Shown here piece by piece: positions 15,624-33,215 of a stretch of 64,000 nt of DNA. The DNA comes from Brevundimonas naejangsanensis (GTDB lineage: Bacteria > Pseudomonadota > Alphaproteobacteria > Caulobacterales > Caulobacteraceae), in the NCBI RefSeq assembly GCF_003627995.1, contig NZ_CP032707.1:2222501-2286500 (forward strand), in the 5' to 3' direction. The notes beneath the pieces were generated by a model, which worked only from the letters and a program-made list of their open reading frames with translations, searched no databases and had not been told where the DNA came from. The stretch's first letter is position 1; each line of letters opens with the position of its first letter. A program made the position numbers and the translations under genes.

Positions 15624-15632
15624 CTTGAATGT

Positions 15633-15660: not shown

Positions 15661-15670
15661 GAGCAAACTG

Positions 15671-16264: not shown

Positions 16265-17267
16265 AGCCTTTCTCGACCTGGATGACGCCGACCGGCGCGA
16301 GGCGCTCCAGGTCGCCGCCGCGGCGACGGGACGGCCTGTTCATCTGCTGGAGAAGGATGTCTGGGTCGTCTGGCTTCTCGACGTCCTGTTCCGTGCGCCC
16401 TTTGGGGAACACCTGGTCTTCAAGGGTGGAACGTCCCTCTCGAAGGCTTACGGCCTGATCGACCGCTTCTCCGAAGACCTCGACCTGACGTATGACATCC
16501 GCACCCTCGCGCCGGACCTCGCGGATCCGCAGGGCGATGGGCTGCCGGCTGCCTTGGCCGAGGCAAGGCGGTGGAGCCGGATCGTGCGGGAGCGCCTGCC
16601 GTCCTGGGTGTCCAGCACTATGTGTCCCTACGTCAAGGCCGCGCTGGCGGGCGAAGGTCTGCAAGCTGATTTGATCGAGGACGGCGACAAGCTGACCGTC
16701 GCCTACGGACCTCTGGCCCAGGGAACGGGCTATGCGCCGCCCTCGGTGCTCCTGGAGTTCGGCGCACGCGCAACGGGAGAGCCAGCCGAAACGCGATACG
16801 TCATTTGCGACGCCGCAGCGGTCTTGCCCGGCCTTGTCTTCCCGACCGCGCGCCCCCGCGTCATGAAGGCCGAGCGGACCTTCTGGGAAAAGGCCACGGC
16901 CGCTCACGTCTACTGCGAACAGGGCCGGATGCGAGGCGAGCGATTTTCCCGCCACTGGTACGATCTCGCGAGGCTGGATGCTGCAGGGGTGGCCGATCTC
17001 GCGGCAGCCGACCGGGCGTTGGCGGACGCGGTCGCCCGGCACAAATCCCACTTTTTTCGCGAGAAGGCGAACGGCGCGGCGATCGATTATCATCGCGCGG
17101 TCGGCGGCGGCCTGCGGCTCGTGCCGGAAGCGGCCGTCCAGGCCGAGTTGGCGGACGACTACAGGCGCATGCTCGAGGACGGCCTCCTGGAGCGCGATGC
17201 ACCGACGTTCGAGGAGCTGATGGCGACTTGCGCCGAACTGGGCGAACGGATCAACGCTGCAGCCTAG
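16257..17267 (+). CDS. abiEii: AbiEii toxin, nucleotidyltransferase
   Basis: 336 aa. The minimal nucleotidyltransferase signature is intact: VFKGGTSLSKAYGLIDRFSEDLDLTY (G-G-T-S-x-S-K and S-E-D-x-D-L, residues about 57-82), with later conserved segments RTFWEKATAAH and RHWYDLARL. AbiEii toxins of this family add nucleotides to tRNA acceptor ends or bind GTP and arrest growth on phage infection. The ATG overlaps the antitoxin stop, so the pair is translationally coupled. The gene end overlaps the end of the convergent AlpA-like gene by 4 nt. Confidence 0.9.
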   Translation: MAEAFLDLDDADRREALQVAAAATGRPVHLLEKDVWVVWLLDVLFRAPFGEHLVFKGGTSLSKAYGLIDRFSEDLDLTYDIRTLAPDLADPQGDGLPAALAEARRWSRIVRERLPSWVSSTMCPYVKAALAGEGLQADLIEDGDKLTVAYGPLAQGTGYAPPSVLLEFGARATGEPAETRYVICDAAAVLPGLVFPTARPRVMKAERTFWEKATAAHVYCEQGRMRGERFSRHWYDLARLDAAGVADLAAADRALADAVARHKSHFFREKANGAAIDYHRAVGGGLRLVPEAAVQAELADDYRRMLEDGLLERDAPTFEELMATCAELGERINAAA

Positions 17268-17545
17268 AAAGGGCGTTGTTCGGATCGGCCGTGCGCCACA
17301 GGTCGCGAACGCCGAAGGCGCACGTCCGGCCCCTTGGCCGGCGTGATCGGATGCTTGCGCCGGAAGGCCAGCCAGGCTTCGACCTCCGCCAGATCCCAGA
17401 CGACGCATCGCGGGGTCAGGAGGAAGCGTTTCGGAAACTCGCCGCGCTGTTCCATTTCCCAGATGGTGCTGTCCGCCAGGGGCACCATCTGAAGCAACTG
17501 CGCCTTTCTGATCGACCGCATCAGCGGAGGGTCGGACCGGGTCAT
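17264..17545 (-). CDS. AlpA-family excisionase/regulator
   Basis: 93 aa. IRKAQLLQMVPLADSTIWEMEQRGEFPKRFLLTPRCVVWDLAEVEAWLAFRR is the small winged helix-turn-helix of AlpA/MerR-like phage regulators. AlpA-type proteins activate or assist P4-like integrases and act as excisionases. A P4-like integrase is present at the island edge, so this is its probable partner. ATG at 17545 is chosen because GGGAG lies seven bases upstream; a GTG at 17548 is also possible. Confidence 0.85.
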   Translation of the reverse strand: MTRSDPPLMRSIRKAQLLQMVPLADSTIWEMEQRGEFPKRFLLTPRCVVWDLAEVEAWLAFRRKHPITPAKGPDVRLRRSRPVAHGRSEQRPF

Positions 17546-17654
17546 CACCTTGCTCCCTTATAACTGCCGGGGAATCGAAGGCGAAGGCCCGCGTCCAGAC
17601 AAGCCGCCAGCTTGCGACCGCGATCCTGCGGGCGGCGGAGAAGGCGGGCCGGAG

Positions 17655-18008
17655 TCACCCGGCGGGAGCCCTTTGAACGACGCCGCTGGTCCATGCCATG
17701 CCGTGGACCTTGCCCCCGGGATTCCATCTGACGTTACGACCGGCAGTTGTCGAGCGCAGGGTGATGACGCAACGCCTCCTGGCGTCGCTCCCGGCGACGC
17801 TGTCATCGACGGGGCGAATGCCAAGAATTGATCCGCCGAAGTACGAGGGCTGCCCCTTGGTCTCGTGGAAGAAAACCTCGCCGTCTTCCAGAGCGCCGAT
17901 TTCCTCAGGCGCAAGAAGCCAGGCTTCGCTCTCATAGACGCCGGCCTTCGGGTCCAGGCAGCGGATCCCTGCACTTGCCCTGCAGATGAAGTGAATGCTG
18001 GAAGACAT
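17655..18008 (-). CDS. Conserved hypothetical protein
   Basis: 117 aa with a plausible ribosome site (AAAAAGGT) upstream of ATG at 18008. Segments include AWLLAPEEIGALEDGEVFFHETKGQPSYFGGSI, RRCVITLRSTTAGRNVRW and a C-terminal GKVHGMAWTSGVV. A compact beta-rich domain with a W near the end recalls PUA/EVE-like nucleotide-binding folds, but this is only an impression. It is divergent from the ankyrin-sigma gene and shares its upstream region, so it could be controlled by the same dyad. Confidence 0.6.
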   Translation of the reverse strand: MSSSIHFICRASAGIRCLDPKAGVYESEAWLLAPEEIGALEDGEVFFHETKGQPSYFGGSILGIRPVDDSVAGSDARRRCVITLRSTTAGRNVRWNPGGKVHGMAWTSGVVQRAPAG

Positions 18009-18118
18009 GCCGTTTGTGACCTTTTTGTCTTTTTCTTCCTGAGGATAACCGCGAGTCGATGGACGACGTCACCCCGCATGCGCTGTAGTGGCTGTCAGGG
18101 TCTGCAGGAAACGAAAGG

Positions 18119-18133
18119 CGACCGAAACTGTCG
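18119..18133 (+). promoter_or_regulatory. Candidate WYL operator upstream of the sigma-factor operon
   Basis: CGACCGAAACTGTCG is an imperfect dyad that matches the two copies around the WYL gene (35708-35722 and 36720-36734) at all dyad positions of CGAC(C/A)G-NNN-C(T/G)GTCG. It lies directly upstream of a possible -35 (TTGGCT, 18138-18143) and -10 (GATATT, 18162-18167). Confidence 0.6.
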
Positions 18134-18137
18134 TAAT

Positions 18138-18167
18138 TTGGCTTTATAGACCGTCGGTATCGATATT
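18138..18167 (+). promoter_or_regulatory. Possible promoter of the sigma-MORC-Z1 operon
   Basis: TTGGCT (18138-18143) and GATATT (18162-18167) are 18 nt apart in the AT-richest part of the divergent gap. The match to consensus is moderate. The spacer contains a second small palindrome, ACCG-T-CGGT (18150-18158). Confidence 0.35.
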
Positions 18168-18266
18168 TGCTGCACGTTAAAGGTGCGCGGCCTAATCGGG
18201 TCGTGTGGCTATGAGGTTGGGGTTGGGTTCTCTGCAGGAAGACTGCGCCGTGACGGCGGGGCGGCC

Positions 18267-20186
18267 GTGACGGACGTGCTGGAGCGAAAGGCGAGCTTGT
18301 CGCCGTTGTTCAGGATGGCTGTCCTGAAGGGCGTCGAGGCGTCGGTGTTGTTGCATATCCGGCGCGGGGCGCCAGTGAACGGCTGCGATGACCGGGGGCG
18401 TACGCCCCTCATGCTGGCTGCGGCGGCCGGCCGCCATGAGATCTGCCTGCTCCTTCTTTCCGAGGGAGCCGAGGCGGCCCTTTCGGGTCCTGACGGCAGG
18501 ACGGCGGCCGACATGGCTGAAGCGGAAGGCCATCTGGCCCTCGCAGCGGCCCTGCGGCCGGCCAGGGAACTGAAGATCGCCCCGGAGGCGGCCGCTCCGG
18601 TCAATGAGGAAGCGCCCGGAGAAGAAGAGGATACCGGCGGCTGGCTGGCCGAAGAGGACGTCTCGACGCCTGCTTCCGACCTGTCCCTGACAACGAGGGT
18701 GGCTGCCGTCCAGGACCGCATTTCGCGACACCGCGTGGCGCGGACTGAAGACGCCTGGGCTATGGCCGATATCTCCATTCCGCTCGGCAAACGCCCGGGA
18801 CGCCCGGACGCGGTTCTGCCGCGCGGCGTTGCGGCCCTGTTCACGACGGCCCTGGCGACCGGACGCATCTGCGAAACCTGGCTGGAGCGCATGCTTCCGG
18901 GAACCGGCGCCGAGCAGTTGCGCCTTGTCCGCAATGTCCTTGACGCCGCAGGCGTTGAGGTCGAGCCGGCCGGTTTCTGGAACAAGGCCGTGCCGCCGCC
19001 TGTACGGAGTGACAGGGCCGGGCCGGACGAGGTCCAGGATGCACTCGATCTTCTGGCGAACCTGATCGAGGACAATGTCGAGCCCTTCGACATCTACAGA
19101 ACGATGACCGACGGCATCGCGGCCTTCGGTCGCGATGAGGAGGAAAGGCTGTTCCGGACCCTCGGGGACGCCCGCCGGGCCCTGATGCAGGCGCTGAAGG
19201 CGGGCCGCGAAGTTCTTCTGGAATGGCTGGAGGCGCAGGAGGCCGGCGAAGGCCGCGCCGATGTCGATGAGGACGTTGACGACGAAGGCGAGGATGATCG
19301 GGAAACGACCGGCGCGGCCGACCAGACCGACCTTCGCCGGTTCCTGGATCAGTCCACCATGGAAGGAACCGAGGCTGTCGGTCCTCCCTACGCCGCTCTG
19401 GCCCGTCTGCTCGAGAGCGACACCGTCGGAAAGATCAGCGAGACCATCGGTCCCGTGCGCAAGGCTCTATTCCGTTATGGGCAGGCGCGTGATCGGATCG
19501 CCGGCGCCAGTCTGAAACTCGTGCCCTGGCAGGCATGGCGCTATCGTCGCCATGGCCTGCCGCTGATGGACCTCGTCCAGGAAGGCAACATCGGTTTGCT
19601 GAAGGCGATCGATCGTTTCGATCCGGCGCGAGGCAACCGCTTCTCCACCTATGCCGTCTGGTGGATCCGGCAGGCCATTTCGCGCGCGGCCGCCGACCAG
19701 GCGCGGATCATCCGGGTCCCGGTCCATATGGTGGACAACATCCGGCAGATCGAACGCGCCGTGATCGAGATGGAGGCTGACGGCCACCCCGGGGGCGTCA
19801 CAGCGGAAGATCTGGCGAGAAAGCTGCAGATGCAGCCGGACAAGGTCCGAAGGATCCTGAGGATCAAGTCCGACGCGGCATCCCTGGAGGATTGCCCGGA
19901 CGCGACCGCGATCGAGGATCCGGACGTGGTTTCGCCGTTCGAGGCGCAGGCCGTCGCCGACCTTCGGAAGACCATGGCCCGGCTTCTGTCCGGCCTCCAT
20001 CCGCGTGAAGAGCGGGTGCTCAGGATGCGCTTCGGGATCGGGCTGGCTTCCGATCACACACTGGAGGAGGTGGGCCAGAAGTTCGACGTCACCCGTGAGC
20101 GCATCCGCCAGATCGAGCTCAAGGCGCTTCGCCGACTTCAACATCCCAACCGCAGCCGCCTGCTCAGGAGCTTCCTTGATGCATGA
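18267..20186 (+). CDS. Ankyrin-repeat / sigma-70 fusion protein
   Basis: About 639 aa if started at GTG 18267; an in-frame GTG at 18183 would add 28 residues that look like non-coding sequence. The N-terminal part has ankyrin-like repeats (VEASVLLHIRRGAPVNGCDDRGRTPLMLAAAAGRHEICLLLL and a second copy starting SGPDGRTAADMAEAEGHL). A helical and acidic middle follows. The C-terminus is a complete sigma-70 core: region 2 (LPLMDLVQEGNIGLLKAIDRFDPARGNRFSTYAVWWIRQAI), region 3 and region 4 (TLEEVGQKFDVTRERIRQIELKALRRL). It should direct RNA polymerase to a private promoter set, with the ankyrin part as sensor or partner surface. The stop overlaps the MORC start by 8 nt. Confidence 0.85.
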   Translation: MTDVLERKASLSPLFRMAVLKGVEASVLLHIRRGAPVNGCDDRGRTPLMLAAAAGRHEICLLLLSEGAEAALSGPDGRTAADMAEAEGHLALAAALRPARELKIAPEAAAPVNEEAPGEEEDTGGWLAEEDVSTPASDLSLTTRVAAVQDRISRHRVARTEDAWAMADISIPLGKRPGRPDAVLPRGVAALFTTALATGRICETWLERMLPGTGAEQLRLVRNVLDAAGVEVEPAGFWNKAVPPPVRSDRAGPDEVQDALDLLANLIEDNVEPFDIYRTMTDGIAAFGRDEEERLFRTLGDARRALMQALKAGREVLLEWLEAQEAGEGRADVDEDVDDEGEDDRETTGAADQTDLRRFLDQSTMEGTEAVGPPYAALARLLESDTVGKISETIGPVRKALFRYGQARDRIAGASLKLVPWQAWRYRRHGLPLMDLVQEGNIGLLKAIDRFDPARGNRFSTYAVWWIRQAISRAAADQARIIRVPVHMVDNIRQIERAVIEMEADGHPGGVTAEDLARKLQMQPDKVRRILRIKSDAASLEDCPDATAIEDPDVVSPFEAQAVADLRKTMARLLSGLHPREERVLRMRFGIGLASDHTLEEVGQKFDVTRERIRQIELKALRRLQHPNRSRLLRSFLDA

Positions 20187-21690
20187 TGCTTTTCGACATG
20201 GCCGTCGCTCGCGAAGCGCCCCTCCGCGCGCCAGCGCCATGGTCGAGGCCCTGCGCGGGCTCGGATATTCGCCGGCCACCGCGATCGCGGATATCATCGA
20301 CAACAGCATCGCCGCCGGCGCCTCGGCGGTGGACCTCGACTTCGTCTGGAGCGGCGAGGACAGCTTCATCACCATCCTGGACAATGGTCGGGGCATGGAC
20401 GAGCAAGCCCTCGACAGGGCCATGCGGCTGGGCGAGCGCAGCCCGCTCGAGGATCGGAACGCGGAAGACCTCGGACGTTTCGGTCTCGGCCTGAAAACCG
20501 CTTCCTTCTCCCAGGCCCGGCGACTCACCGTGGCGTCACGCCAGGAGGGAGGCGAGGTGCTCGCCCTTCACTGGGATCTGGACGTCCTGCGCGACGATCC
20601 GGCGGGCGCATGGGCCCTTCTCGAAGGTGCGGCGGAGGGCTCGCAGGAGAGGCTCGCTGCGCTTGAGGCCTTGCCCTCGGGAACCCTGGTGCTTTGGGAA
20701 CTGATGGATCGCATCGTGCCGTCCGGCGTCCGTGAACAGGACTTCCTCGACCTTATCGACCGGATCGAGCAGCACCTCGCCATGGTCTTCCACCGCTTCA
20801 TCGAGAAGCGACGCCTGACGATCAGGATCAACGGGAGGGCGATCGCCGCCTGGAATCCCTTCCTCGAGCACCGCTCCGACACCTGGCGCTCGGGGACCGA
20901 CACCTTCCTCGTCAACGGCAGCCCGGTTAGCGTCGAGGGCTTCGTCCTGCCGCATCGCGACCGGCTGGATGCGAAGACGCGCGACAGCGCCGCCGGTCCG
21001 GACGGCTGGACGGCCCAGCAGGGCTTCTACGTCTATCGCAACGAGCGCCTGCTTGTGGCCGGCCACTGGCTGGGCCTCGGCAAGGGCCGCGGCTGGACCA
21101 AGGATGAGCCCTTCCGTCTCGCCCGCATCCGTCTGGACCTGCCCAACAGCGCGGACGCGGACTGGAAGATCGATATCCGCAAATCCACCGCCCGCCCTCC
21201 GGTTGAGGCGCGGATGCGGCTGTCCGTCTTCGCCGAGGACGTGCGCGACCGGGCCCGCAAGGTGTTCGCCTTCCGCGGCAAGCCCCAGGCGACCGGCGCC
21301 CGCAGTCCGGTCGTCCAGGCCTGGCGCGCGGATCGACTGACCGGGGGCGTTCGCTACCGGATCGACGCGGACCACCCGGCAGTCGCCGCCGTGCTTGAAC
21401 ACGCCGGACCGCTCAAGGCCGATATCGAGGCCATGCTGGCGGTCATCGAGGCGACCGTGCCGGTCCAGCAGATCTGGCTGGATACGGCCGAGGCGAAGGA
21501 CACGCCGAAGGCCGCGCCTGACGGCCCGCCGACCGAGGCCGAGCGCAGGATGCTGGAGACCGTCTTCAGGAACCTCGTCAGCCGCAAGGGCTACAGCATC
21601 GAACAGGCGCGCAACAAACTCCGGTCCAGCGAACCCTTTGACGCCTGGCCCGACCTTATCGACACCCTCGTCCCCACACCTTCGGAGTAG
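20179..21690 (+). CDS. MORC/MutL-like GHKL ATPase
   Basis: 503 aa from ATG at 20179 with AGGAG at 20166-20170. The Bergerat ATP site is complete: IADIIDNS (36-43), DNGRGMDE (68-75) and LGRFGLGLKTASFS (98-111). The rest resembles the S5-like and coiled parts of MORC/MutL-type ATPases. Such ATPases were described in restriction-modification-like operons next to Z1, DUF4420 and methylase genes (Iyer, Abhiman and Aravind 2008, from memory). They probably act as ATP-driven DNA clamps that coordinate recognition and cleavage. It overlaps the sigma gene by 8 nt and lies 5 bp before Z1. Confidence 0.88.
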   Translation: MHDAFRHGRRSRSAPPRASAMVEALRGLGYSPATAIADIIDNSIAAGASAVDLDFVWSGEDSFITILDNGRGMDEQALDRAMRLGERSPLEDRNAEDLGRFGLGLKTASFSQARRLTVASRQEGGEVLALHWDLDVLRDDPAGAWALLEGAAEGSQERLAALEALPSGTLVLWELMDRIVPSGVREQDFLDLIDRIEQHLAMVFHRFIEKRRLTIRINGRAIAAWNPFLEHRSDTWRSGTDTFLVNGSPVSVEGFVLPHRDRLDAKTRDSAAGPDGWTAQQGFYVYRNERLLVAGHWLGLGKGRGWTKDEPFRLARIRLDLPNSADADWKIDIRKSTARPPVEARMRLSVFAEDVRDRARKVFAFRGKPQATGARSPVVQAWRADRLTGGVRYRIDADHPAVAAVLEHAGPLKADIEAMLAVIEATVPVQQIWLDTAEAKDTPKAAPDGPPTEAERRMLETVFRNLVSRKGYSIEQARNKLRSSEPFDAWPDLIDTLVPTPSE

Positions 21691-21695
21691 ACGCC

Positions 21696-24533
21696 TTGCC
21701 CAACGCAAAAGTCGTCAAATTCACCCAGGAACTCCTCCTCGACCAGGAGCCGGGCGCCATCAGCCCGGGGCTGATCAGCGAGAAGATCGATGAGGTGCTC
21801 GCTTTCAAACCGGCCTGGCGCGAGGGGCTGGATCGTGACGCCGCGATCACCGAGCTCGTCCGGCGTTTCAGCGTGTGGATCAGCGCGGACACCTCCATCA
21901 GCAGCCTGGAGGGCCACAAGGCCTGGCTGGAGGCCGACAGGAAAGGCGACTGGCGCTACTGGCAGCGCTATCGCGAGTTCGTCGAGGGCAAGATGTCGGA
22001 CGCCGCGGTCGAGGCGCTCGACCGTTCGACCGACAATATCCTCGGCATGCTGGAGGATCCGGAACGGGACGGTCCCTGGGACCGGCGGGGCCTGGTCGTC
22101 GGCCATGTCCAGTCCGGCAAGACGGGCAACTATACAGGCCTGATCTGCAAGGCCGCCGACGCTGGTTACAAGATCATCATCGTCCTGGCGGGCCTGCATA
22201 ACAACCTGCGGGCCCAGACCCAGATGCGTCTCGACGAGGGCTTCCTCGGTTATGAGACGCATCCCATCGCCGAGGACCTGAGGGCGATCGGGGTGGGCCT
22301 GATCGACGGCGATCTCGCCATCAGGCCGAACTATGTGACCAACCGGACCGACAAGGGCGACTTCAGCACCGCGCGGGCCAAGACCCTGGGCATCACCCCG
22401 GAACAGCGCCCCTGGCTGTTTGTCATCAAGAAGAACAAGACGGTCCTTGAGCGCCTCCTGGGCTGGATCCGGAACCATGTCGCCGACGCCCAGGATACCG
22501 AGACGGGGCGCAAGCTGGTGACCAAGCTGCCTCTTCTGCTGATCGACGACGAGGCCGACCACGCCTCGGTCGATACCGGCGAGCAGGTCTATGACGACGA
22601 CGGCCTGCCGGACGCCGAGCACCAGCCCACGGCGATCAACAGCCTTACGCGCAGGATTCTCAACACCTTCACCCGCTCGGCCTATGTCGGCTACACGGCC
22701 ACGCCGTTCGCCAACATCTTCATCCATGAGCGCAACGAGACGAAGGAGGAAGGGCCGGATCTCTTCCCCTCGGCCTTCATCGTCAATCTGGGGGCTCCCT
22801 CAAGCTATGTCGGGCCGGCCCAAGTGTTCGGCCTCCAGGCGCCGGGGGGCCGGACGCCTGGACTGCCGCTGTTCCGGTCTGTTTCCGATCATGCCTCGGA
22901 GGACGGGAAGGCAGGCTGGATGCCCCATACCCACAAGAACGGGCATGTGCCGAAGATCGACCGGGACAGCGGTCTGCCGGAAAGCCTCGAGCAGGCGATC
23001 GACGCCTTCCTTTTGGCGTGCGCCGTCCGCCGCCTGAGAGGCCAGGCTGGCGAGCACTCGTCGATGCTGATCCACATCACCCGTTTCACATCGGTCCAGA
23101 AGGCCGTCCATCAGCAGGTGGCCGCCCATGTGTCGGCCCTCAACCAGCGTCTGTCCCGCCGCATCGGCCATGAGGAAGCGCTGGCCCGCATGGAGCGTCT
23201 CTGGGTTGATGACTTCCTGCCGACCAGCCGGCGGGCAGCCAGGGATTTTCCCGCCCTTGCGGATCATCACGATATGCCGGAATGGGCCGAGGTACTCGAA
23301 ATCCTGCCCGCCGTGGTCGCCGATACCGACGTGCGCATGATCAACGGCACGGCGAAGGATGCGCTGGACTACGCTGACCACAAGGACAAGGGACTTCAGA
23401 TCATCGCCGTAGGCGGCGACAAGCTCTCGCGCGGCCTGACCCTGGAGGGGCTGTGCACCAGCTACTTCCTGCGCACCTCCAAGATGTACGACACCCTGAT
23501 GCAGATGGGCCGCTGGTTCGGCTACCGGCCCGGCTATATCGACCTGTGCCGTCTCTATACGACTGATGAACTGGGCGACTGGTTCGGTCATATCGCAGAC
23601 GCCGCCGAGGAACTTCGGGACGAGTTCGACCTCATGGTGGCCTCGGGCGGCACGCCCCGTGACTATGGTCTCAAGGTGCAGTCCCATCCCGTGCTCATGG
23701 TGACGTCACGGCTCAAGATGCGCTCGGCGCGCAATCTGATGCTGTCGTTCAGCGGCCAGGTGTCGGAAACCGTGTCTCTCTTCACGGACCGGGCAGTGCT
23801 CCAGGGCAACCTCGACGCCACGGCCGCTCTGGTTTCCCGCCTCGGCGCAGGCGAGATCGATCCGGTCCGCAAGCGCGGGGACAGCGAGCAAAAGTGGAAG
23901 GGCCGGCTCTGGGAAGATGTGCCAGCGAACGAGATCATCGATTTCCTCGGCGCCTACAAGACCCACCCGGAAGCCTACAAGGTCAACAGCGTCCTGCTGG
24001 CCGAGTTCATCGCCAAGATGAACGCCGTCTCTGAACTCACGTCCTGGACCGTGGCGGTTATCGGCGGCGGGCAGGGCGAGGATCATGAGCTGACGCCGGG
24101 ATTCCGGGTGGACATGCTCAAGCGCAAATCGACCGGAAAGGCGGGGCGCTATGCTATCGGTCGTCTGCTCTCCCCGCGCGACGAGACCCTGGACCTCGAC
24201 GAGGCGGAGTGGAACGCCGCACTCGACCTGACGCGATCCGTCTGGCGCGAGGACCCTGCGCGTCTGAAGGACGGGGAGGAGCCTTCCGATCCGTCCGGCC
24301 CCGCCATCCGCCGCATACGTGGGGAAGGAACGCCCGACAGCCCGGGGCATCCCGAGCGCGGACTGCTGCTGATCTATCTGCTGGATCCGAAGGAGGCGGG
24401 CGATGGGGTGGCCCGGGATCTGCCGCCCGTCGTGGCGATAGGTCTCAGTTTCCCGTCGACCGAGAAGGGCGAGAAGGTCGAGTACAAGGTGAACAATGTC
24501 GCCTGGACGCAGGAGTATGGCGGTGCTGACTGA
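21696..24533 (+). CDS. Z1 domain superfamily II helicase-like ATPase
   Basis: 945 aa with a TTG start at 21696 preceded by GGAG, five bases after the MORC stop. Walker A is VVGHVQSGKTGNY (134-146), the DExD motif LLIDDEADHAS (281-291), motif III-like GYTATPFANIF (332-342), and the Z1 hallmark GGDKLSRGLTLEGLCTSYFLRTSKMYDTLMQMGRWFGYRPGY covers motifs V-VI. Z1 proteins are predicted DNA translocases or helicases of defence operons, likely the motor that moves DNA to the neighbouring nucleases. The C-terminal third is a family-specific extension. Confidence 0.92.
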   Translation: MPNAKVVKFTQELLLDQEPGAISPGLISEKIDEVLAFKPAWREGLDRDAAITELVRRFSVWISADTSISSLEGHKAWLEADRKGDWRYWQRYREFVEGKMSDAAVEALDRSTDNILGMLEDPERDGPWDRRGLVVGHVQSGKTGNYTGLICKAADAGYKIIIVLAGLHNNLRAQTQMRLDEGFLGYETHPIAEDLRAIGVGLIDGDLAIRPNYVTNRTDKGDFSTARAKTLGITPEQRPWLFVIKKNKTVLERLLGWIRNHVADAQDTETGRKLVTKLPLLLIDDEADHASVDTGEQVYDDDGLPDAEHQPTAINSLTRRILNTFTRSAYVGYTATPFANIFIHERNETKEEGPDLFPSAFIVNLGAPSSYVGPAQVFGLQAPGGRTPGLPLFRSVSDHASEDGKAGWMPHTHKNGHVPKIDRDSGLPESLEQAIDAFLLACAVRRLRGQAGEHSSMLIHITRFTSVQKAVHQQVAAHVSALNQRLSRRIGHEEALARMERLWVDDFLPTSRRAARDFPALADHHDMPEWAEVLEILPAVVADTDVRMINGTAKDALDYADHKDKGLQIIAVGGDKLSRGLTLEGLCTSYFLRTSKMYDTLMQMGRWFGYRPGYIDLCRLYTTDELGDWFGHIADAAEELRDEFDLMVASGGTPRDYGLKVQSHPVLMVTSRLKMRSARNLMLSFSGQVSETVSLFTDRAVLQGNLDATAALVSRLGAGEIDPVRKRGDSEQKWKGRLWEDVPANEIIDFLGAYKTHPEAYKVNSVLLAEFIAKMNAVSELTSWTVAVIGGGQGEDHELTPGFRVDMLKRKSTGKAGRYAIGRLLSPRDETLDLDEAEWNAALDLTRSVWREDPARLKDGEEPSDPSGPAIRRIRGEGTPDSPGHPERGLLLIYLLDPKEAGDGVARDLPPVVAIGLSFPSTEKGEKVEYKVNNVAWTQEYGGAD

Positions 24534-25533
24534 TACCGAGGAACTCGAACTCGCCTGGAACGCCCTGTCCGGTCAGGAACGCGCGGAGGGCTGGGCCACC
24601 GTCGCCCTGGGAACGGCGACGGCCCGCTTCCGGGCGGGCATCGTCTATCCCGGCGGAGAGGAGACCCTTCTCATCGGCTTCAACTCGGACGTCGTTCCGA
24701 AGAAGGCCGACCTGCCGGAGGGGGCGGGCTTCCGTGTCGAGGTCTCGTCCGAGGCCTTCGCGCCCGCCTTCGGGCGCTGGCTGTGCCTGACCCGGCAGAA
24801 CGGGGCGGGACGCGACCTCTTCGTCCAGATGGCGGCGGACGTGGTGGCGGCCGTCGCCACGGCGGGCGAACGGTCGGAGACCTCCCTGCTCGGCCTGACC
24901 CTGACCCGAATCCGGGCATGGCAGGATTTCATGCGTCGTCCCCGCAGCGGGGTTCTGCCGCCCGAGGAGGAGACCGGGCTGGCGGGAGAACTGACGGTGC
25001 TCTGCCGGCTCATCGAGGGCGGCGCCTCGCCCGCCGGCGTCGCCGGGGCATGGAACGGGCCCGCCGGGGGCCTCCAGGACTTTCAGACCGGGACCCTCGG
25101 GCTGGAGGTCAAGACGACCCTCTCGGTCACCGGCTTTCCGGCGCGGATCAGTTCGCTCGAGCAGCTCGATGAACTCGCCGGACGGCCCGTGCTGCTGGCG
25201 GCGGTGCGGCTGTGCCTGCAGGAAGACGGCCTGACCCTGCCGGGCCTTGTCGAGCGCGCCCGCGGCCTCATGGGGAGCGACAGCCGCGCCCTGGCCATGC
25301 TGGAGCGGGCTCTCCTGCTGGCGGGCTATCTTGATGACGTCGCCTCCGAATATGTGAGGCGCTTCCATTGCGTCGAGATCCGCGTCTTCGACGTGGACGA
25401 GACCTTCCCGCGCCTCGTGCGCAGCGCTGTGCGGCCCGAGATCCGGGCCGCCGCCTATGACATTGATATTGACCTGGTGACCGCCGCCCCCTTCAGCCTG
25501 GGCGACGCCCTGGTCCGTGCCGGAGCTTTCTGA
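24523..25533 (+). CDS. DUF4420 PD-(D/E)XK-motif nuclease
   Basis: 336 aa from GTG at 24523, best spaced from AGGAG (24511-24515); ATG at 24517 is an alternative. The nuclease core is LQDFQTGTLGLEVKTTL (D-x-E-V-K), preceded by EEETGLAGELTVLCRLI, which supplies the helical Glu. This is the Z1-associated DUF4420 family of predicted restriction nucleases. It overlaps the Z1 stop by 11 nt and ends 4 bp before AIPR, so the four genes are clearly one transcription unit. The target specificity is unknown. Confidence 0.85.
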   Translation: MLTDTEELELAWNALSGQERAEGWATVALGTATARFRAGIVYPGGEETLLIGFNSDVVPKKADLPEGAGFRVEVSSEAFAPAFGRWLCLTRQNGAGRDLFVQMAADVVAAVATAGERSETSLLGLTLTRIRAWQDFMRRPRSGVLPPEEETGLAGELTVLCRLIEGGASPAGVAGAWNGPAGGLQDFQTGTLGLEVKTTLSVTGFPARISSLEQLDELAGRPVLLAAVRLCLQEDGLTLPGLVERARGLMGSDSRALAMLERALLLAGYLDDVASEYVRRFHCVEIRVFDVDETFPRLVRSAVRPEIRAAAYDIDIDLVTAAPFSLGDALVRAGAF

Positions 25534-25537
25534 ACCC

Positions 25538-27316
25538 ATGACGCTTGAAGAATTTCTCGTCCAGACCCGTTCCGAGGTGGATGCCCTTGTCAGCGACCGG
25601 ATCGTCGCCGGGGCCTATCTCAGGGGCGAACAGGCCTTCACCGACATCGTCATGCAGCACATGGCCGAGGTCGGGATGACCAATGATCCCCAGGTGCTGC
25701 ATATCGAGCGCAAGCTGGGCAACGCCAATCTCAAGCTCAACGGCTACGCCGTCTCCGAGGAGGCGGACCGGCTGGACCTGTTCGTGACCCTCTATGAGGG
25801 CCATCAGACGGTGGAGCCCGTGGCGGACGCCGAGGTGACAAGGGCGGCCGAACAGTGCCTGAAGTTCCTGAACGGAGCGGCGGGCGGCAAGCTGCTCAAG
25901 GCGATCGATCCCGCCGACGAGGCCTATGAGTTCAGCCAGACCGTCAACGACTGCTACGACGGCCTGGACCAGATCTGCGTCTATATCCTGAGCGACCGCC
26001 AGGCGAAGACGCGGAACTACAAGCCGCGCGAGGTCGCGGGCAAATCGGTCCGGCTCGAGGTCATGGATATCGAGCGTCTCTTCCGTCACTGGTCGGAGGG
26101 CAAGCCGCGCGATGAACTCGTGGTCAATTTCGACGAGGTCTGCGGTTCGCCGCTGCCGTGCGTCTATGTGCCGGGCGAGAACGACGACTATGACTACGCC
26201 CTGACCGCCATCCCGGGCGCGGCCCTGCGCCAGTTGTACGAGAAGTTCGGCGCGCGCCTGCTCGAGGCCAATGTCCGCTCCTTCCTCAGCCAGACCGGCA
26301 AGGTGAACCAGGGCATCCGCGACACCCTGCGCGACGAGCCCGAGCGCTTCATGGCCTACAACAACGGCATCGTCCTGATCGCCGACGGCGCCGGCCTGTC
26401 CCGCACCCCCGACGGGTCCGCCGGTATCTCCTGGCTCAAGGGCATGCAGATCGTGAACGGCGGCCAGACCACGGCCTCGATCTACTTCACCAAGCGCAAG
26501 CACCCGGACGTTGATCTCGCGCGGGTGCGCGTTCCGGCCAAGGTCATCGTCCTGCACCAGCACGATCCGGACGCCGAGGAGCGGCTGGTCAGCGACATCT
26601 CCCGCTACGCCAACAGCCAGAATGTGGTGAAGATCTCCGACCTGTCGGCCAACAAGCCCTTCCATGTCGAGCTCGAGAAGCTGGCCCTGTCGACCTATTG
26701 TCCGGACGGCGTCGGGCGCTGGTTCTACGAACGGGCCGCCGGCAGCTACAATGTGCTGCTGGCCCGCGAGGGCACGACGCCGGCGCGCCTGCGCCAGCTG
26801 AAGGAGGCCATCCCGCCGGCCCGCAAGCTGACCAAGACCGACCTGGCCAAATATGTGAACGCCTGGGCCGGCAAGCCCCAGCTGGTGTCGCTCGGCTCCC
26901 AGAAGAACTTCCAGCGCTTCATGGCCGAGATGAGCGACGGCGAGGCCGCCCTGCCGGATGTCGCCGCCTACAAGGGCTTCATCGCCCAGGTCATCCTGTT
27001 CAAGGCCGTGCAGAAGATCGTCCGCAGCGGCGGCTACCAGTCTTACCAGGCCAATATCACGGCCTATACGGTGGCCTCGGTCGCCCGTCTGGCCGGGCCT
27101 GCCTTCTCCCTGGAGGCCGTCTGGCTGAAGCAGGGCCTGTCGCCGCAGCTGTCCGCCTGGATCGCGGAGGTGGCGGCGGACGTCGACCGGATCCTCCGGC
27201 AGAGCGCCGGCGCCCGGATGGTCTCCGAGTGGGCCAAGAAGGACGAATGCTGGGAAGCGGTGAAGGCGGGCAGGATCACGCCGCCGCCGTCCGGCGTGCC
27301 GGAACTCGTCCGGTGA
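25538..27316 (+). CDS. AIPR family protein (abortive infection phage resistance)
   Basis: 592 aa from ATG at 25538. The AIPR domain is centred on LLEANVRSFLSQTGKVNQGIRDTLRDEPERFMAYNNGIVLIA and MQIVNGGQTTASIYF (about residues 248-325). AIPR proteins were first met as a plasmid phage-resistance factor and recur in Z1/MORC and other restriction-like operons. Their biochemical role is not established. The gene starts 4 bp after the DUF4420 gene and its TGA overlaps the next GTG. Confidence 0.88.
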   Translation: MTLEEFLVQTRSEVDALVSDRIVAGAYLRGEQAFTDIVMQHMAEVGMTNDPQVLHIERKLGNANLKLNGYAVSEEADRLDLFVTLYEGHQTVEPVADAEVTRAAEQCLKFLNGAAGGKLLKAIDPADEAYEFSQTVNDCYDGLDQICVYILSDRQAKTRNYKPREVAGKSVRLEVMDIERLFRHWSEGKPRDELVVNFDEVCGSPLPCVYVPGENDDYDYALTAIPGAALRQLYEKFGARLLEANVRSFLSQTGKVNQGIRDTLRDEPERFMAYNNGIVLIADGAGLSRTPDGSAGISWLKGMQIVNGGQTTASIYFTKRKHPDVDLARVRVPAKVIVLHQHDPDAEERLVSDISRYANSQNVVKISDLSANKPFHVELEKLALSTYCPDGVGRWFYERAAGSYNVLLAREGTTPARLRQLKEAIPPARKLTKTDLAKYVNAWAGKPQLVSLGSQKNFQRFMAEMSDGEAALPDVAAYKGFIAQVILFKAVQKIVRSGGYQSYQANITAYTVASVARLAGPAFSLEAVWLKQGLSPQLSAWIAEVAADVDRILRQSAGARMVSEWAKKDECWEAVKAGRITPPPSGVPELVR

Positions 27317-27972
27317 AGGACTTCGCCAGACGTCGCGGCGCGCTTGCCGCGACCTTCAGCGCGATAGCCTTCAAGCGGCTGACCGCCGTCGAGACCGACG
27401 CAGCCCGCTCGAACCAGCACGAGTTCAACGGCGGCCGGGCCCTGATGAGGCTGTTCGGTCCCGAAAGCCCGCAGCGTGTGATCACCGACTTTGTCTGGAT
27501 GCCGGACGACGGGGAATTCGTCAGGGAGGAGGGGCTGCTCACCTGGTATGACGCCAGGGCTCGTCATCCGACACGCTCGGAGTACCGGCTCTATTACGTC
27601 GACAACAAGGTCACGAGCCGGGCGCGCGAGGGCGATCTGCTGGTGATCGCCCGCAAGCCCGACGGCGCCACCCTGATGCTGCTGGCCCCCGGGTCAGGCC
27701 TGGCGGCGACCCGCATCGCCTGGATGTTCGGTCTGGAAGCCGAGCCCGGCGCGGCTTTCGCCGCCTTCGGGCTGGACGCCGGCGACCGGTCGAGGATCCG
27801 GGAGGCCCTGTCGGGGACCGGGACGCCAGCCGATGAATGGGCAGGGGAGAGTTCGGGCGAGCTGGTCCAGGCCGATCCCTCGATCAGGGCCTCTCTCCTG
27901 CAGATGCAGAAGGCGATCGGCGAGGAACGCGAGGCGGTAGCGGACGAGGGCGGCTGGGTTCCCGCGCCTTAG
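27313..27972 (+). CDS. Stand-alone EcoRII N-terminal-domain protein
   Basis: 219 aa with a GTG start overlapping the AIPR stop (GTGA). It is homologous to the first 140 residues of the EcoRII gene downstream: FKRLTAVETDAARSNQHEFNGG versus YKRLAAVEVDRLRSNQHEFNGN, and LTWYDARARHPTRSEYRLYY versus LTWYDARAAHPTRTEHHLYY. The EcoRII N-domain is the effector-binding B3-like DNA-reading domain. The catalytic C-domain residues are absent here. It should therefore bind CCWGG-like DNA without cutting, perhaps as the target-recognition subunit of the MORC-Z1-DUF4420 complex. Confidence 0.85.
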   Translation: MKDFARRRGALAATFSAIAFKRLTAVETDAARSNQHEFNGGRALMRLFGPESPQRVITDFVWMPDDGEFVREEGLLTWYDARARHPTRSEYRLYYVDNKVTSRAREGDLLVIARKPDGATLMLLAPGSGLAATRIAWMFGLEAEPGAAFAAFGLDAGDRSRIREALSGTGTPADEWAGESSGELVQADPSIRASLLQMQKAIGEEREAVADEGGWVPAP

Positions 27973-28073
27973 GGACCGGGTCGAGCGCTCCGGGGGCAGT
28001 GCGGGAAAGATGTCCCCAGGTCTCTGTCTGCGGATCCTTTCCAGGGGCTGTTCACGGGTTGTTCTCCACGGGC

Positions 28074-28100
28074 CGATTTGCGACATTCTGTCGGAAATCG
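28074..28100 (+). promoter_or_regulatory. 27-nt palindromic operator in front of the dcm-like gene
   Basis: CGATTT-N-CGACA-NNN-TGTCG-N-AAATCG (28074-28100) is symmetric over all 22 arm positions except one flanking pair. It lies 15 nt upstream of the methylase GTG. The methylase carries an N-terminal helix-turn-helix, as M.EcoRII does, so autogenous repression at this site is likely. Its centre also resembles the WYL dyads. Confidence 0.7.
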
Positions 28101-28115
28101 ACCCAGAGGTGATTC

Positions 28116-29354
28116 GTGAGCGAGTTTTCGACGCTCCGGCAGCGCGCCGGACTGACCGTGGCCGAGGCGGCCCGTGCGGCCGGCTATGACGAGCGGACCG
28201 CCTACCGCTGGGAATCCGGGGAGGTGAAGCCGCGCGAGGCCGTGCTCAGGCTGTTACGCTCGATGCAGGAGCCTGTCGCCCGCCGGGAGCCCGGCGAACC
28301 GGCGTTCCGTTTCATCGACCTGTTCGCCGGGATCGGGGGCCTGCGCCGCGGATTCGAGGCCATCGGGGGCAAATGCGTCTTCACCAGCGAGTGGGACAAG
28401 TACGCCCAGCTGACCTATCGCGCCAACTTTCCGTATGATGACCATGAGGTAAACGGGGACATCCGCCAGGTCGCCGAGGCCGACATCCCGCAGTTCGACG
28501 TCCTTCTGGCCGGCTTCCCCTGCCAGCCCTTCTCCCTTGCGGGCGTGTCCAAGAAGAACTCCCTGAACCGGGCGCATGGTTTCGCGGACGAGACCCAGGG
28601 CACCCTCTTCTTCGACGTGGCGCGGATCCTGGCCCATCACCGGCCCGCCGCCTTCCTGCTCGAGAACGTCAAGAACCTGCTGAGCCACGACCGGGGCCGC
28701 ACCTTCGAGGTGATCAAGGACGTCCTGCAGGAGCAGCTCGGCTATCACATCAGCTACCGCGTGGTGGACGGCAAGCCCTGGACGCCCCAGCACCGGGAGC
28801 GAATCTTCATCGTCGGCTTCCGTGATCCGACCGCCTTCTCCATGAACGACATGCCCATCCCCGAGGGCGGGCCGGTCCTGGCCTCCATTCTTCATGGAGC
28901 TGCGGAGATCGAGGAGCCGGAGGCGCCGTACAGCGAGGGACCTGAAGGCAAGGCGGCGGCGAAATACACGCTCAGCCAGCACCTGTGGACCTATCTGCAG
29001 AACTACGCCGAGAAGCATCGGCAGAAGGGCAACGGCTTCGGTTTCGGCCTGGTCGGCCCCGGGGACACCGCCCGCACCCTGTCGGCGCGCTATCACAAGG
29101 ACGGCTCGGAAATCCTGATCGACCAGGGCAAGGGCCGCATTCCCCGACGGCTGACGCCGCGGGAATGCGCGCGACTGATGGGCTTCGACCGGCCGGGACA
29201 GCCGCCGGTCCGCATTCCGGTCTCGGACACCCAGGCCTATCGCCAGTTCGGCAACGCCGTGGTGGTGCCGGTGGTCGAGGCGATCGCCCGTCACATGGAG
29301 CCGCATCTCATGAAGGCCCTGGCGGCGCAGGAGCCCGAGCGCGACGTTGCCTGA
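28116..29354 (+). CDS. DNA cytosine-C5 methyltransferase, Dcm/M.EcoRII-like
   Basis: 412 aa with GTG start after AGAGGTGA. Residues 1-55 form a helix-turn-helix ([35 protein letters not shown]). The methylase follows with motif [16 protein letters not shown] (67-80), motif [10 protein letters not shown] with catalytic Cys136, motif [12 protein letters not shown], motif [17 protein letters not shown] and motif [12 protein letters not shown]. It methylates the internal C, probably of CCWGG given the EcoRII and Vsr genes beside it. The overlapping Vsr gene (8 nt) is the usual Dcm-Vsr arrangement. Confidence 0.92.
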
Positions 29355-29805
29355 CGTCGTGGACGCCGCGACGCGCAGCCGGATGATGTCCGGCATTCGC
29401 GGCAAGAACACGAAGCCGGAAATGCTCCTCAGGAGGGGCCTGCACGCCCGCGGGCTCCGTTATCGCCTGCATGCGAGGGACCTTCCGGGCAGTCCGGACA
29501 TGGTCTTCCCGGCAAGAAGGGCCGTCCTGTTCGTCCATGGCTGCTTCTGGCACGGCCATGACTGCCATCTGTTCCGCATGCCGGGCTCCAGGCCGGACTT
29601 CTGGCGCACGAAGATCGAACGGAATCGCGAGGTGGACCGGCGGGCCGTCGACGCCCTGCGGGAGGCCGGGTGGCGGGTCGCGGTGGTCTGGGAATGCGCG
29701 CTTAAGGGCCGGACGCGCCGGGACCCGGATGCCGTGCTTGACGCCTGCGCCCTGTGGGCGAGAGAGGGCGGGGACTGGCTCGAGATCAGGGGGAGGGATG
29801 AATGA
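29347..29805 (+). CDS. vsr: Very short patch repair endonuclease Vsr
   Basis: 152 aa. [38 protein letters not shown] and [26 protein letters not shown] are the Vsr signature; the Asp of PDMVF and the His residues of [10 protein letters not shown] are catalytic, and a Zn site follows. Vsr nicks T:G mismatches created when 5-methylcytosine deaminates, protecting Dcm sites from mutation. The TTG start lies inside the dcm-like gene. The stop overlaps the EcoRII ATG by 4 nt. Confidence 0.93.
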
Positions 29806-31040
29806 GCAGGGGGCTGCTGTCCGACTATTTCACCGGGGTGATGTACAAGCGCCTCGCGGCGGTGGAGGTCGATCGCCTCCGTTCCAACCAGCACGAGTTC
29901 AACGGCAATCCGGGCTTCAAACGACTGCTGGGCACGGCGCCGCGACGCGAACTCACCGCCACCTTCCTCTACCTGGACGACGAGCGCCGCGTCTCGGGGC
30001 CGGGGCGCCTGACCTGGTATGACGCCCGGGCCGCCCATCCGACGCGGACCGAGCACCATCTCTACTATACGCCCAATGAGGTCGTGCCCCTGGCCAGGGC
30101 CGGCGACGGCTTCTTCCTGGCCCTTCGCCCCGACGACGAGGTCCTGGTGATCATCGCGCCGGCGGGCAGTTCGGTGCTCGCCCAGCTGTTCTGGCTGTTC
30201 GACATGGACCGGACCGGCGCCCTGGAGCTGGAAACCCGGGACCTGTCGACCTCGCCGGTCGAGGCGGGATTCCTGGCCCGCATGGTGCTCGAGGAGCTCG
30301 GGATCGAGGCCGAGGGTCCGGGGGAGGAGCGTTTCGACACCCTGGTCGAACAGTTCGGTCTGGCCTTCCCGTCGACGCGCGTTTTCTCGGAGTTCGCACG
30401 CAAGAGCCTGGGGAACCTCGATCCCCGGGACGACCCGGACGCGGTCCTGATGGCCTGGATCGAGCGGGAGGAGCAACTTTTCCGTCGCCTCGAGCGCCGG
30501 ATCGTTTCGGAGCGGCTTTCCGAAGGCTTCCACGCTGACGGCAAGGTCGACGTGGACGGTTTCCTGGGCTTCTCCCTGGGCGTGCAGAACCGCCGCAAGT
30601 CACGCGCGGGTGCGGCCCTGGAGAACCATGTGGAAGTGGTCTTCCAGGCCTTCGGTCTGGACGTCGAGCGGGGGGCGAGGACCGAGAACAACAACCGGCC
30701 CGACTTTCTCTTCCCGGGCGCGGCCGCCTACCATGATCCCGCGGTTCCGGCGGAACGCCTGCTGATGCTCGGCTCCAAGACGACCTGCAAGGATCGCTGG
30801 CGCCAGGTCCTGTCCGAGGCGGCCCGGATCGAGCACAAGCACCTTTTGACGCTCGAGCCGGGCATTTCGGAGAGCCAGACGACGGAGATGAAGGACAAGC
30901 GCCTGCAACTGGTCTTGCCGGCCTCGATCCATGCCAGCTACCGGGCCTCTCAACGACCGGATCTGTCGTCCTTGCGTGATTTCATAGATCTGGCTTCGGA
31001 GCGCCAGGGACCGGGAGGCGGGACCCAGCCCCAGGCGTAA
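29802..31040 (+). CDS. Type IIE restriction endonuclease EcoRII-like
   Basis: 412 aa, against 404 for R.EcoRII. Residues 1-140 are the effector-binding N-domain and about 160-412 the PD-(D/E)XK catalytic domain. The active site is visible as D301 (NNRPDFLFP), Y310 and K326/K330 in LGSKTTCKDRWRQVL. This is the same spacing as the published EcoRII residues D299, Y308, K324 and K328 (from memory), shifted by two. It is expected to cut unmethylated CCWGG after binding a second copy as effector. It overlaps vsr, so methylase, repair and restriction genes are coupled. Confidence 0.93.
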   Translation: MSRGLLSDYFTGVMYKRLAAVEVDRLRSNQHEFNGNPGFKRLLGTAPRRELTATFLYLDDERRVSGPGRLTWYDARAAHPTRTEHHLYYTPNEVVPLARAGDGFFLALRPDDEVLVIIAPAGSSVLAQLFWLFDMDRTGALELETRDLSTSPVEAGFLARMVLEELGIEAEGPGEERFDTLVEQFGLAFPSTRVFSEFARKSLGNLDPRDDPDAVLMAWIEREEQLFRRLERRIVSERLSEGFHADGKVDVDGFLGFSLGVQNRRKSRAGAALENHVEVVFQAFGLDVERGARTENNNRPDFLFPGAAAYHDPAVPAERLLMLGSKTTCKDRWRQVLSEAARIEHKHLLTLEPGISESQTTEMKDKRLQLVLPASIHASYRASQRPDLSSLRDFIDLASERQGPGGGTQPQA

Positions 31041-31064
31041 CGGGATCATGCGGTAGGCAAATCA

Positions 31065-31280
31065 ATGGGGCGCAGGGTCGGCTATCGTCGCCGGGAAAGA
31101 GGCCCGGGGTTCTTCCCGGTGCTGGTCGCATTGATCGTGCTGTCGCTGACAGGGGCGGGGGCGGTTGTCTGGCCGCTCTTTCTTGTTCTGGTCGGCGCCG
31201 TCGCGCTGACCCTGGCCGTGTTCTTCTTGAAGCTTGTCGCTGAAATGGCGTGCCAGCTGGTGCGGGCCCTGACGTGTTGA
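31065..31280 (+). CDS. Small two-helix membrane protein
   Basis: 71 aa. A basic N-terminus (MGRRVGYRRRERG) is followed by two hydrophobic helices, about 15-34 and 36-57, then VAEMACQLVRALTC. No domain is recognised. It begins 24 bp after the EcoRII stop and ends 28 bp before the McrA-head nuclease gene, so it could be cotranscribed with either. Small membrane proteins in defence operons are often effectors, but nothing in the sequence shows this. Confidence 0.6.
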   Translation: MGRRVGYRRRERGPGFFPVLVALIVLSLTGAGAVVWPLFLVLVGAVALTLAVFFLKLVAEMACQLVRALTC

Positions 31281-31308
31281 ACCAGGGCCAGCCAGGAAGG
31301 GGGTGGAA

Positions 31309-33039
31309 ATGTCGTTTCGGGTAATAGCCGACAGCGGTGAGCCCATGGACGCCCATCTCGACATCGAGGGTGATGAATTCATCTTCCATAGTCGTGGGGG
31401 CGCCAAGGGCCGGGCAAGCGCGCGGAATATTGATTACGGTCCGGCGCTTCGTCTTCTCCTGACCCGGATCCAGGCTGCCGGCGCTCGCGTGGAAGGAGCC
31501 TGGCTGGATACCGAGGAGGTCCGCCACCTACCGCTTGAAGCGCGTGTAATTCTTGAGCGGGACGAATTCCAGGCAAGACCTGAAGAGCAGTTTCGGCTGA
31601 TGTCGGGACGTATGCAGATTTTCCAGAGGCCCCCCGGATCTCGACGAGGGGGAAGTCGCGTCAAGAAAGTCCGCATCCGGGTTGGCCAGAAGGCGAGGGG
31701 GGCGGACCTTGAAGGAATTCTCGGGGTGAGGTGGACAGCGGGGCGTGAACAGCGATTGCCCGCTCACGATCTGAACAAGGTTACGGCGACTCATATCCGG
31801 AACGCGGTCGAACGTCTGCGGCGCGACCCTGCCTCGGCGCCCGGCTTCGGTCCCGCGAGAGAATATGAAGTCGTCGTTGATGAGGAAACCCGGCTGCCGC
31901 CGAAGGCGGTGTTCGGCCTGGCCGCTTCCGACGCGCTCGGGTTCAGCGTCGAGCCGGCCGATTTTTCAGGCGGCGCGGCCAGTATATGTCACAGGCTGCT
32001 GGAAGCGGCCGGGTATCCGGTAGTGGCCGCGCGCAAGCCGCGCGTCCCTCTCATGCTGGAGGACGATCTGGCGATTGTCGATGAGGCCTGGGACGGGTGG
32101 ATTAACGCCCTGACGGGGGAGGCGCGGTCGCTCGGTTCCGGTCTTCTGTGGATGGACGCCCATTCGGTGATATTCTCGCCTCGTCCCTCGGACAAGCGCG
32201 CGGACCGCACGGACATACATCTGGGCGGGTTCCGGCATGACCTGAGCGTGACGATCAGTGCGCCGCTCAAGGGCGCGGACGCCAACGGGCTCTCCGCGAT
32301 CGCCCGGGATGCCTCTGGCAGACGGGTCCTGATCCGGCAGGGCTGGCTGAGAGGCAGACCGGAGGTGCGTGGGGAACAGTTCCGGCGACTGACCGGCCTG
32401 ACGCCGGTGGAAGTCACCGGCGGAACAGCCCCGACTGTGCGTGAGTGGTACATTGTCGCCGACCTCGACAAGGCGTCGGACGAGATCGCGGCGAGCACCG
32501 CCGACTTTGTACTGAGATGCATGGAGGCCCGTGCAGCGGCCAAGGCCGGGTCAGGCGTCCCGGCCCCGTCGTCCCCACCGCTGACAGCGGGAGAGGAGAC
32601 CGGCGGAACCTTCACCCGCAAGGCTGTCACACAGCCGGAGGCGGAAGTGCACCGGATTCACGGCGAGGTTTGGCTCCGGCTGCAGGATCTCCTCAAGTCT
32701 CCTGGACCCCGGCTCTCGAAGTTGCGACATCAGGCCGGTTACGAGGTTGATGGCGTGATCGCGGGGGCCGAAGGCCGCATTCTGCTCGAGATCAAGACAG
32801 GCCGATCCGCAGCGGACGTCTACGAAGGCGTCGGCCAGCTGATGCTCTATTCCAGCATGCTCGGTCTGCATGACCACAGGAAGGTGCTTTTGCTGGCGTT
32901 CGAACCGAGCGCGACCCTTGTCGAGGCGACCCGGAGTTGCGGCGTGGAGTTGTACAGCTACGCCTGGACGAAAACCGATGATGGGATCGAGGTCGATCTC
33001 CCTAACGGGTTTCTGGCGATCTGTGGAAGCGACCGGTAG
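31309..33039 (+). CDS. McrA-head / PD-(D/E)XK nuclease, predicted modification-dependent
   Basis: 576 aa from ATG at 31309 with GGAAGGGGG upstream. Residues about 140-235 (HDLNKVTATHIRNAVERLRRD...REYEVVVDEETRLPPKAVFGLAASDALGFSVEPADFSGG) match the N-terminal head domain of ScoMcrA-type Type IV enzymes (from memory). A central domain of about 200 residues, with a GWLRGRPEVRGEQFRRLTGLTPVEVTGG segment, is not recognised. The C-terminus is a nuclease: AGYEVDGVIAGAEGRILLEIKTGRSAADVYEGVGQLMLY (D-x-E-I-K-x-Q). This looks like a restriction enzyme reading modified DNA, with no methylase of its own. Confidence 0.7.
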   Translation: MSFRVIADSGEPMDAHLDIEGDEFIFHSRGGAKGRASARNIDYGPALRLLLTRIQAAGARVEGAWLDTEEVRHLPLEARVILERDEFQARPEEQFRLMSGRMQIFQRPPGSRRGGSRVKKVRIRVGQKARGADLEGILGVRWTAGREQRLPAHDLNKVTATHIRNAVERLRRDPASAPGFGPAREYEVVVDEETRLPPKAVFGLAASDALGFSVEPADFSGGAASICHRLLEAAGYPVVAARKPRVPLMLEDDLAIVDEAWDGWINALTGEARSLGSGLLWMDAHSVIFSPRPSDKRADRTDIHLGGFRHDLSVTISAPLKGADANGLSAIARDASGRRVLIRQGWLRGRPEVRGEQFRRLTGLTPVEVTGGTAPTVREWYIVADLDKASDEIAASTADFVLRCMEARAAAKAGSGVPAPSSPPLTAGEETGGTFTRKAVTQPEAEVHRIHGEVWLRLQDLLKSPGPRLSKLRHQAGYEVDGVIAGAEGRILLEIKTGRSAADVYEGVGQLMLYSSMLGLHDHRKVLLLAFEPSATLVEATRSCGVELYSYAWTKTDDGIEVDLPNGFLAICGSDR

Positions 33040-33215
33040 GGATGCTCCCGTTAGGGCCTTCAGCGACGAGGTGTTCGGCTGGCCGCCTCACGGTCCGGGG
33101 CCGGGTCTTGTCGAACCGGACGCGTCTATACCCCAGGTGATTGATCTATCTTGGAAAAGCGTCGGCTCCGGTCGTTTTTGAGGTTGGCGTCGGCTGGGAT
33201 ACCGGCGATAGAGAA

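Follow-up and report, generated by a model that had tools for sequence, protein, structure and literature searches.

A predicted divergent MZA defence operon headed by an RpoD-derived sigma protein in Brevundimonas naejangsanensis

Gene content of the operon

The window analysed here is a 64,000-nt stretch of Brevundimonas naejangsanensis (contig NZ_CP032707.1, positions 2,222,501 to 2,286,500), in which a forward-strand operon combines a five-gene set matching the MZA (mzaABCDE) anti-phage system with a sixth gene and an EcoRII-Dcm-Vsr set. The first gene, mzaA (18267..20186, with a longer start possible at 18183), encodes an ankyrin part at amino acids (aa) 17-96 and an RpoD-derived sigma-70 part, with Pfam regions 2 and 4 at aa 421-480 and 573-626, respectively. 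Its end overlaps by 8 nt with mzaB (20179..21690), which encodes a MORC/GHKL ATPase according to PADLOC (MzaB) and NCBIfam. The third gene of the set, mzaC (21696..24533; PADLOC MzaC), is followed by mzaD (24496..25533), encoding a DUF4420 PD-(D/E)XK nuclease-like protein (Pfam 6.8e-62; PADLOC MzaD), and by mzaE (25517..27316), encoding an AIPR protein (Pfam 1e-90; PADLOC MzaE).

Gene 6 (27313..27972) overlaps mzaE by 4 nt and encodes, by alignment, a stand-alone relative of the N-terminal domain (N-domain) of the EcoRII-like restriction enzyme encoded at the end of the operon. After a gap of 143 nt follows the gene of a Dcm-type cytosine-5 methyltransferase (28116..29354; Pfam 7.2e-79, NCBIfam dcm 300 bits) with an N-terminal helix-turn-helix (HTH) domain (HTH_31, 9.1e-09). 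The Vsr mismatch endonuclease (29347..29805; NCBIfam vsr 152.6 bits, cut-off 97.85) and the EcoRII-like enzyme (29802..31040), which carries the EcoRII-C catalytic domain at aa 227-395 (Pfam 5.3e-69), complete the set.

Assignment to the MZA system

Genes 1-5 were matched by PADLOC to MzaA (5.5e-66), MzaB (7.5e-176), MzaC (0), MzaD (5.1e-45), and MzaE (5.4e-211). Their best NCBIfam matches were the MzaA-E equivalogs NF041931-NF041935, each scoring under its cut-off, with 458 of 800 bits for MzaA, 706.7 of 850 for MzaB, 1383 of 1500 for MzaC, 319 of 420 for MzaD, and 911 of 1050 for MzaE, so that the window genes represent a divergent member. While the proteins fall outside MZA in the narrow sense given by these equivalog cut-offs, a sigma-70 protein MzaA is encoded directly upstream of MzaB, and in the wide five-gene sense genes 1-5 are a divergent MZA system with predicted anti-phage protection. 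The sigma-headed MORC operon that an earlier note on this DNA had described is confirmed. The primary paper for the MZA system is reportedly Gao et al. 2020.

The dedicated sigma factor was regarded in the earlier note as a new feature of such clusters. However, mzaABCDE is called a validated system and mzaA is given as a sigma factor in PMC9523054, and NCBIfam also names MzaA as a sigma factor; having already been published as such, the dedicated sigma is not new. No explanation of the role of MzaA in defence was found in searches of an open-licence library, which did not cover Gao et al. 2020.

Like known MZA systems, the window has all five genes, the sigma-70 gene included, but it adds gene 6 and the EcoRII-Dcm-Vsr set. 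The MORC/SFII-helicase/novel-nuclease operons of Iyer, Abhiman and Aravind 2008 (PMC2292703), the comparative reference for MORC/SFII-helicase/RE-fold operons that include Dcm and Vsr, are alike in their MORC ATPase, RE-fold protein, Dcm, and Vsr, in an SFII helicase with the motif DThhQXuRhFG, and in AIPR, which appears in a figure legend, whereas the terms “sigma” and “ankyrin” have 0 occurrences in the available portion of that text. The Type II candidate system, as outlined in a section of PMC9523054, shares MORC and AIPR genes and has core genes reminiscent of mzaABCDE, but is only about 20% identical to mzaBCDE and includes mzaA in few cases; the sigma-less loci L030-L038 of our collection may correspond to it. 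In the accessible part of PMC12839542, BrxL of BREX is described with a sigma-HTH, and MORC, ankyrin, and mza are not mentioned.

Linkage of MzaA to MORC and its fused domains

MzaA was compared across 72 loci and surveyed in 398 genomes. A MORC gene lay directly after all full-length MzaA genes of the genome survey (8/8), which strongly supports the linkage of sigma and MORC genes drawn in the earlier note. In 48/72 MzaA-MzaB pairs a candidate MzaB start overlapped MzaA by 1-17 nt (by 4 nt in 36 of these), an upper figure because the start nearest to such overlaps was picked. These overlaps would be arranged as in coupled translation. Whole-protein identity to the window MzaA drops to 28% within the set.

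Ankyrin is the usual N-terminus of MzaA, with Pfam Ank_2 (E<=0.01) detected in 64/72 proteins. The eight MzaA without it comprise L044, L048, and L115, in which the open reading frame begins at a contig end, as well as L075, L078, L088, L098, and L100. Fusions with GcrA-type domains occur in 3/72 MzaA, of which L094 and L102 (Pararhodobacter and Sedimentimonas) have three copies apiece and L024 has one C-terminal copy; L024 seems to be Paracoccus, as a duplicate of L084. GcrA is characterized in part of PMC7987155 as a sigma-70 partner active at methylated promoters. At the other end of the system, a second MzaE-like gene follows mzaE in L043, L046, L047, and L050.

The sigma part of MzaA compared with RpoD

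The sigma parts of the 72 MzaA were aligned with 20 RpoD and one RpoH, and a crude residue rule split MzaA into class I (56 proteins, window included) and class II (16 proteins). L096, L097, and L107, class I by this rule, are grouped with class II in a tree of the sigma part. MzaA did not form a single clade apart from RpoD in that tree (at least 3 changes), where long branches meet and the bootstrap had not stabilised.

Regions 2 and 4 of the window MzaA reached 67.5 and 55 bits in Pfam, both above cut-off, and carry the -10 and -35 reading residues of RpoD. In contrast, region 3 reached 20.3 bits, under its cut-off of 25.3, and the equivalent of the region 3.2 finger and linker (19869..19994) spans 42 aa compared to 49 in RpoD, with the finger motif lost. 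Among the RpoD rows of the alignment, the closest shares 54% identity with the window sigma part. The RpoD of the same genome, named by eye from its sequence, is encoded at a separate locus (L001). The window MzaA therefore appears RpoD-derived, with a putative status as a working sigma factor.

Identity to the RpoD consensus was highest in the DNA-reading parts, with 0.76 in class I and 0.70 in class II for the -35 helix 4.2, and 0.77 and 0.58 for region 2.3-2.4. Region 2.2 followed with 0.66 and 0.27, while the finger 3.2 retained 0.18 and 0.04, against 0.93 in the RpoD set and 0.26 in the one RpoH. Five of the six named residues of the -35 recognition motif R-E-R-x-R-Q-x-E occur in 72/72 MzaA, and one R in 71/72. 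D435, Q438, and G443 of region 2.2, to which we ascribe a core-binding role, are invariant in the 36 class I MzaA of one alignment; the roles of single MzaA residues are presumed here to be those of their counterparts in E. coli sigma. The finger has the lowest conservation of all regions within class I, at a mean pairwise identity of 0.16 versus 0.67 for 4.2. The class II stretch has its own shorter form and is more conserved (0.57). A loose finger-like motif was present in 20/20 RpoD, 14/16 class II, and 12/56 class I proteins, so that finger loss is true of most class I members and not of all MzaA. As judged from these residues, class I MzaA have kept the DNA-reading parts, and their sigma finger is degenerate. 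According to PMC12445709, the sigma finger is implicated in organising the template and in abortive initiation, pausing, and escape.

Overall, MzaA shares with RpoD the residues of regions 2.3-2.4 and 4.2, and some members also carry region 1.2 and non-essential-region domains. It differs by its ankyrin N-terminus, the degenerate finger of class I, an often shorter linker, and its place in a defence operon. A close resemblance to RpoD in regions 2 and 4 (54% identity over the window sigma part) that is much reduced in the finger, combined with a protein-binding ankyrin module in 64/72 proteins, would suit a decoy or guard, an RpoD look-alike that senses a phage seizing or modifying the housekeeping sigma and then triggers MzaB-E. 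We consider this improbable, as a pure decoy would not need a near-invariant -35 helix unless phage proteins bind there.

Promoters and the proposed role of MzaA

As MzaA carries the -35 reading residues of RpoD and reads what RpoD reads, a private promoter of the operon is unlikely. Sigma-70-like sites at 17260-31600 numbered 1 compared to 1.1 in shuffled sequences, motifs of unknown form not having been searched. The top-scoring site ahead of the window mzaA did not exceed its shuffles (6.4 vs 6.5). Across 67 upstream regions a weak excess of sigma-70-like sites was observed. Of two subgroups whose upstream DNA was aligned, one showed coding sequence of a WYL-type gene and the other lacked a clear promoter. 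In 17/72 loci (L024, L053, L060, L083, and 13 more; of the five query proteins, the four checked in Pfam were all WYL) the gene immediately preceding MzaA on its strand is of this type, so regulation need not be the task of MzaA. In L078 and L101 a WYL-type gene lies farther from MzaA on the opposite strand. The earlier interpretation is thus upheld in part: the link between sigma and MORC genes stood, the novelty of a dedicated sigma did not, and the proposed private promoters found no support.

These data bear on whether MzaA is a working regulatory sigma that transcribes the mza operon, possibly along with a small regulon, once infection relieves an ankyrin-mediated inhibition. The well-kept regions 2 and 4, the position as first of five mza genes, and the weak excess of sites upstream of the 67 loci point in this direction, and the GcrA-type fusions in 3/72 MzaA and Pfam HTH matches in a few more would fit promoter work. 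However, RpoD-type DNA-reading residues could hardly single out private promoters, the window shows neither a promoter excess nor an upstream site exceeding shuffles, a WYL-type gene directly precedes MzaA in 17/72 loci, and MzaA is locked to MzaB instead of being set apart, which leaves the regulatory role rather unlikely. We tentatively favour, at somewhat less than even confidence, a structural role in which MzaA would dock on a promoter or on the polymerase rather than act as a regulator. Class I MzaA should still find ordinary promoters but may start RNA poorly, each step of the mechanism being inferred. The residue pattern, with DNA reading kept and the class I finger relaxed, yields a prediction by which a regulator could be distinguished from a targeting part.

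Other sigma-region-4 proteins in loci without MzaA

Besides the class I finger degeneracy and the association of gene 6 with the EcoRII-like enzyme, alternative sigma-region-4 proteins were found here. They are encoded in L029 (12367-15084), L105 (15914-19306), L112 (15959-19312), L168 (282-2984), and L169 (8426-11479), and none has a region 2 match. The gene lies tail to tail with mzaE in 4/5 of these loci, among them L029, L105, and L112, where the product has 905-1130 aa. These three proteins are mutually 26-31% identical over 635-856 aligned positions, and the one in L112 has an RpoA-CTD match below cut-off (E 0.0014). A profile built from the three matched 4/398 genomes, with at most two candidates scored per genome. 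G069 is the genome of L029, and the match in G137 again lies tail to tail with MzaE, while G259 has no MzaB-E match within 19.9 kb and G002, a fragment, has none within 9 kb. The sigma-region-4 proteins are possible substitutes for MzaA, and their occurrence in MzaA-less loci suggests a recurring link to transcription.

Gene 6 and the EcoRII-Dcm-Vsr set

When gene 6 is aligned with the N-domain of the EcoRII-like enzyme, both show the core KRL..VE...SNQHEF. A PDB search with gene 6 found nothing, and the matches of the enzyme to PDB 3hqg and 1na6 were confined to about aa 175-395. It thus has the C-terminal EcoRII-C catalytic domain of the type IIE enzyme EcoRII, whose site is CCWGG, but differs from it in its N-terminal 175 aa, for which single-sequence and profile searches gave no sequence match to solved EcoRII, a fold match not having been tested. 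The EcoRII N-terminal effector domain was not detected in the window enzyme, where Pfam at E<=0.1 returned EcoRII-C only and the N-domain profile matched no PDB chain.

The N-domain was scanned in plasmid and viral loci and in 89 further loci, 75 of which include MzaE followed by 800 bp or more. Among the 89, the window, L022, L040, and L117 were the only ones to have it, each carrying a stand-alone copy as well as an EcoRII-fused one. It was also found in plasmid locus L145, with a gene 6 homologue after mzaE, while plasmid locus L146, in which MZA is combined with a different type of annotated restriction enzyme, lacks the N-domain. Gene 6 therefore directly follows mzaE in 5/5 MZA loci with an EcoRII-like enzyme and is absent from all other MZA loci scanned, although the five belong to a single clade, with MzaC 73-77% identical to that of the window, and are not independent. 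Downstream in the window, the enzyme set is located upstream in the other four loci, in L040 on the same strand and in L022, L117, and L145 on the opposite one.

This varying position and strand, together with the 143-nt gap before Dcm, could indicate that EcoRII-Dcm-Vsr is an independent restriction-modification system beside MZA and gene 6 a leftover duplicate. Dcm and the fused enzyme indeed occur without MZA genes in the fetched stretches of 13 viral contigs (L147-L159), usually with Vsr, and in 3.5-kb stretches of genomes G038 and G023 (L141 and L142), neither of which is among the MzaC-bearing genomes. On the other hand, the 13 viral contigs lack a stand-alone N-domain in these stretches, whereas 5/5 MZA loci with the enzyme have one after mzaE, and a Vsr or Dcm-like match occurs in 58/72 MzaA loci, cut contigs included. 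We regard an independent system as possible but doubtful.

In viral contig L160 (6646-13712) a MORC gene has a stand-alone N-domain as its neighbour; Dcm, Vsr, and, as named by eye, an SNF2-like helicase and HNH are also encoded, with no EcoRII-C match. The distribution fits gene 6 as a candidate recognition part of the MORC machine, and an N-domain standing alone points to a way in which such systems could distinguish self from non-self DNA. A second small protein in L160 resembles the EcoRII N-domain by eye.

Genomic surroundings of the operon

Upstream of the operon an integrase comes directly after guaA, followed by an AbiEi/DUF6088 and AbiEii toxin-antitoxin pair (window 14364-17267), an arrangement in which the operon resembles the cargo of an island at the guaA site. 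The search for an attachment repeat of the integrase gave one 13-bp match only, which was not accepted as att. Downstream, a weak PD-(D/E)XK match below the Pfam cut-off lies at 33141-34016, and a WYL-WCX regulator is encoded at 35738-36739.
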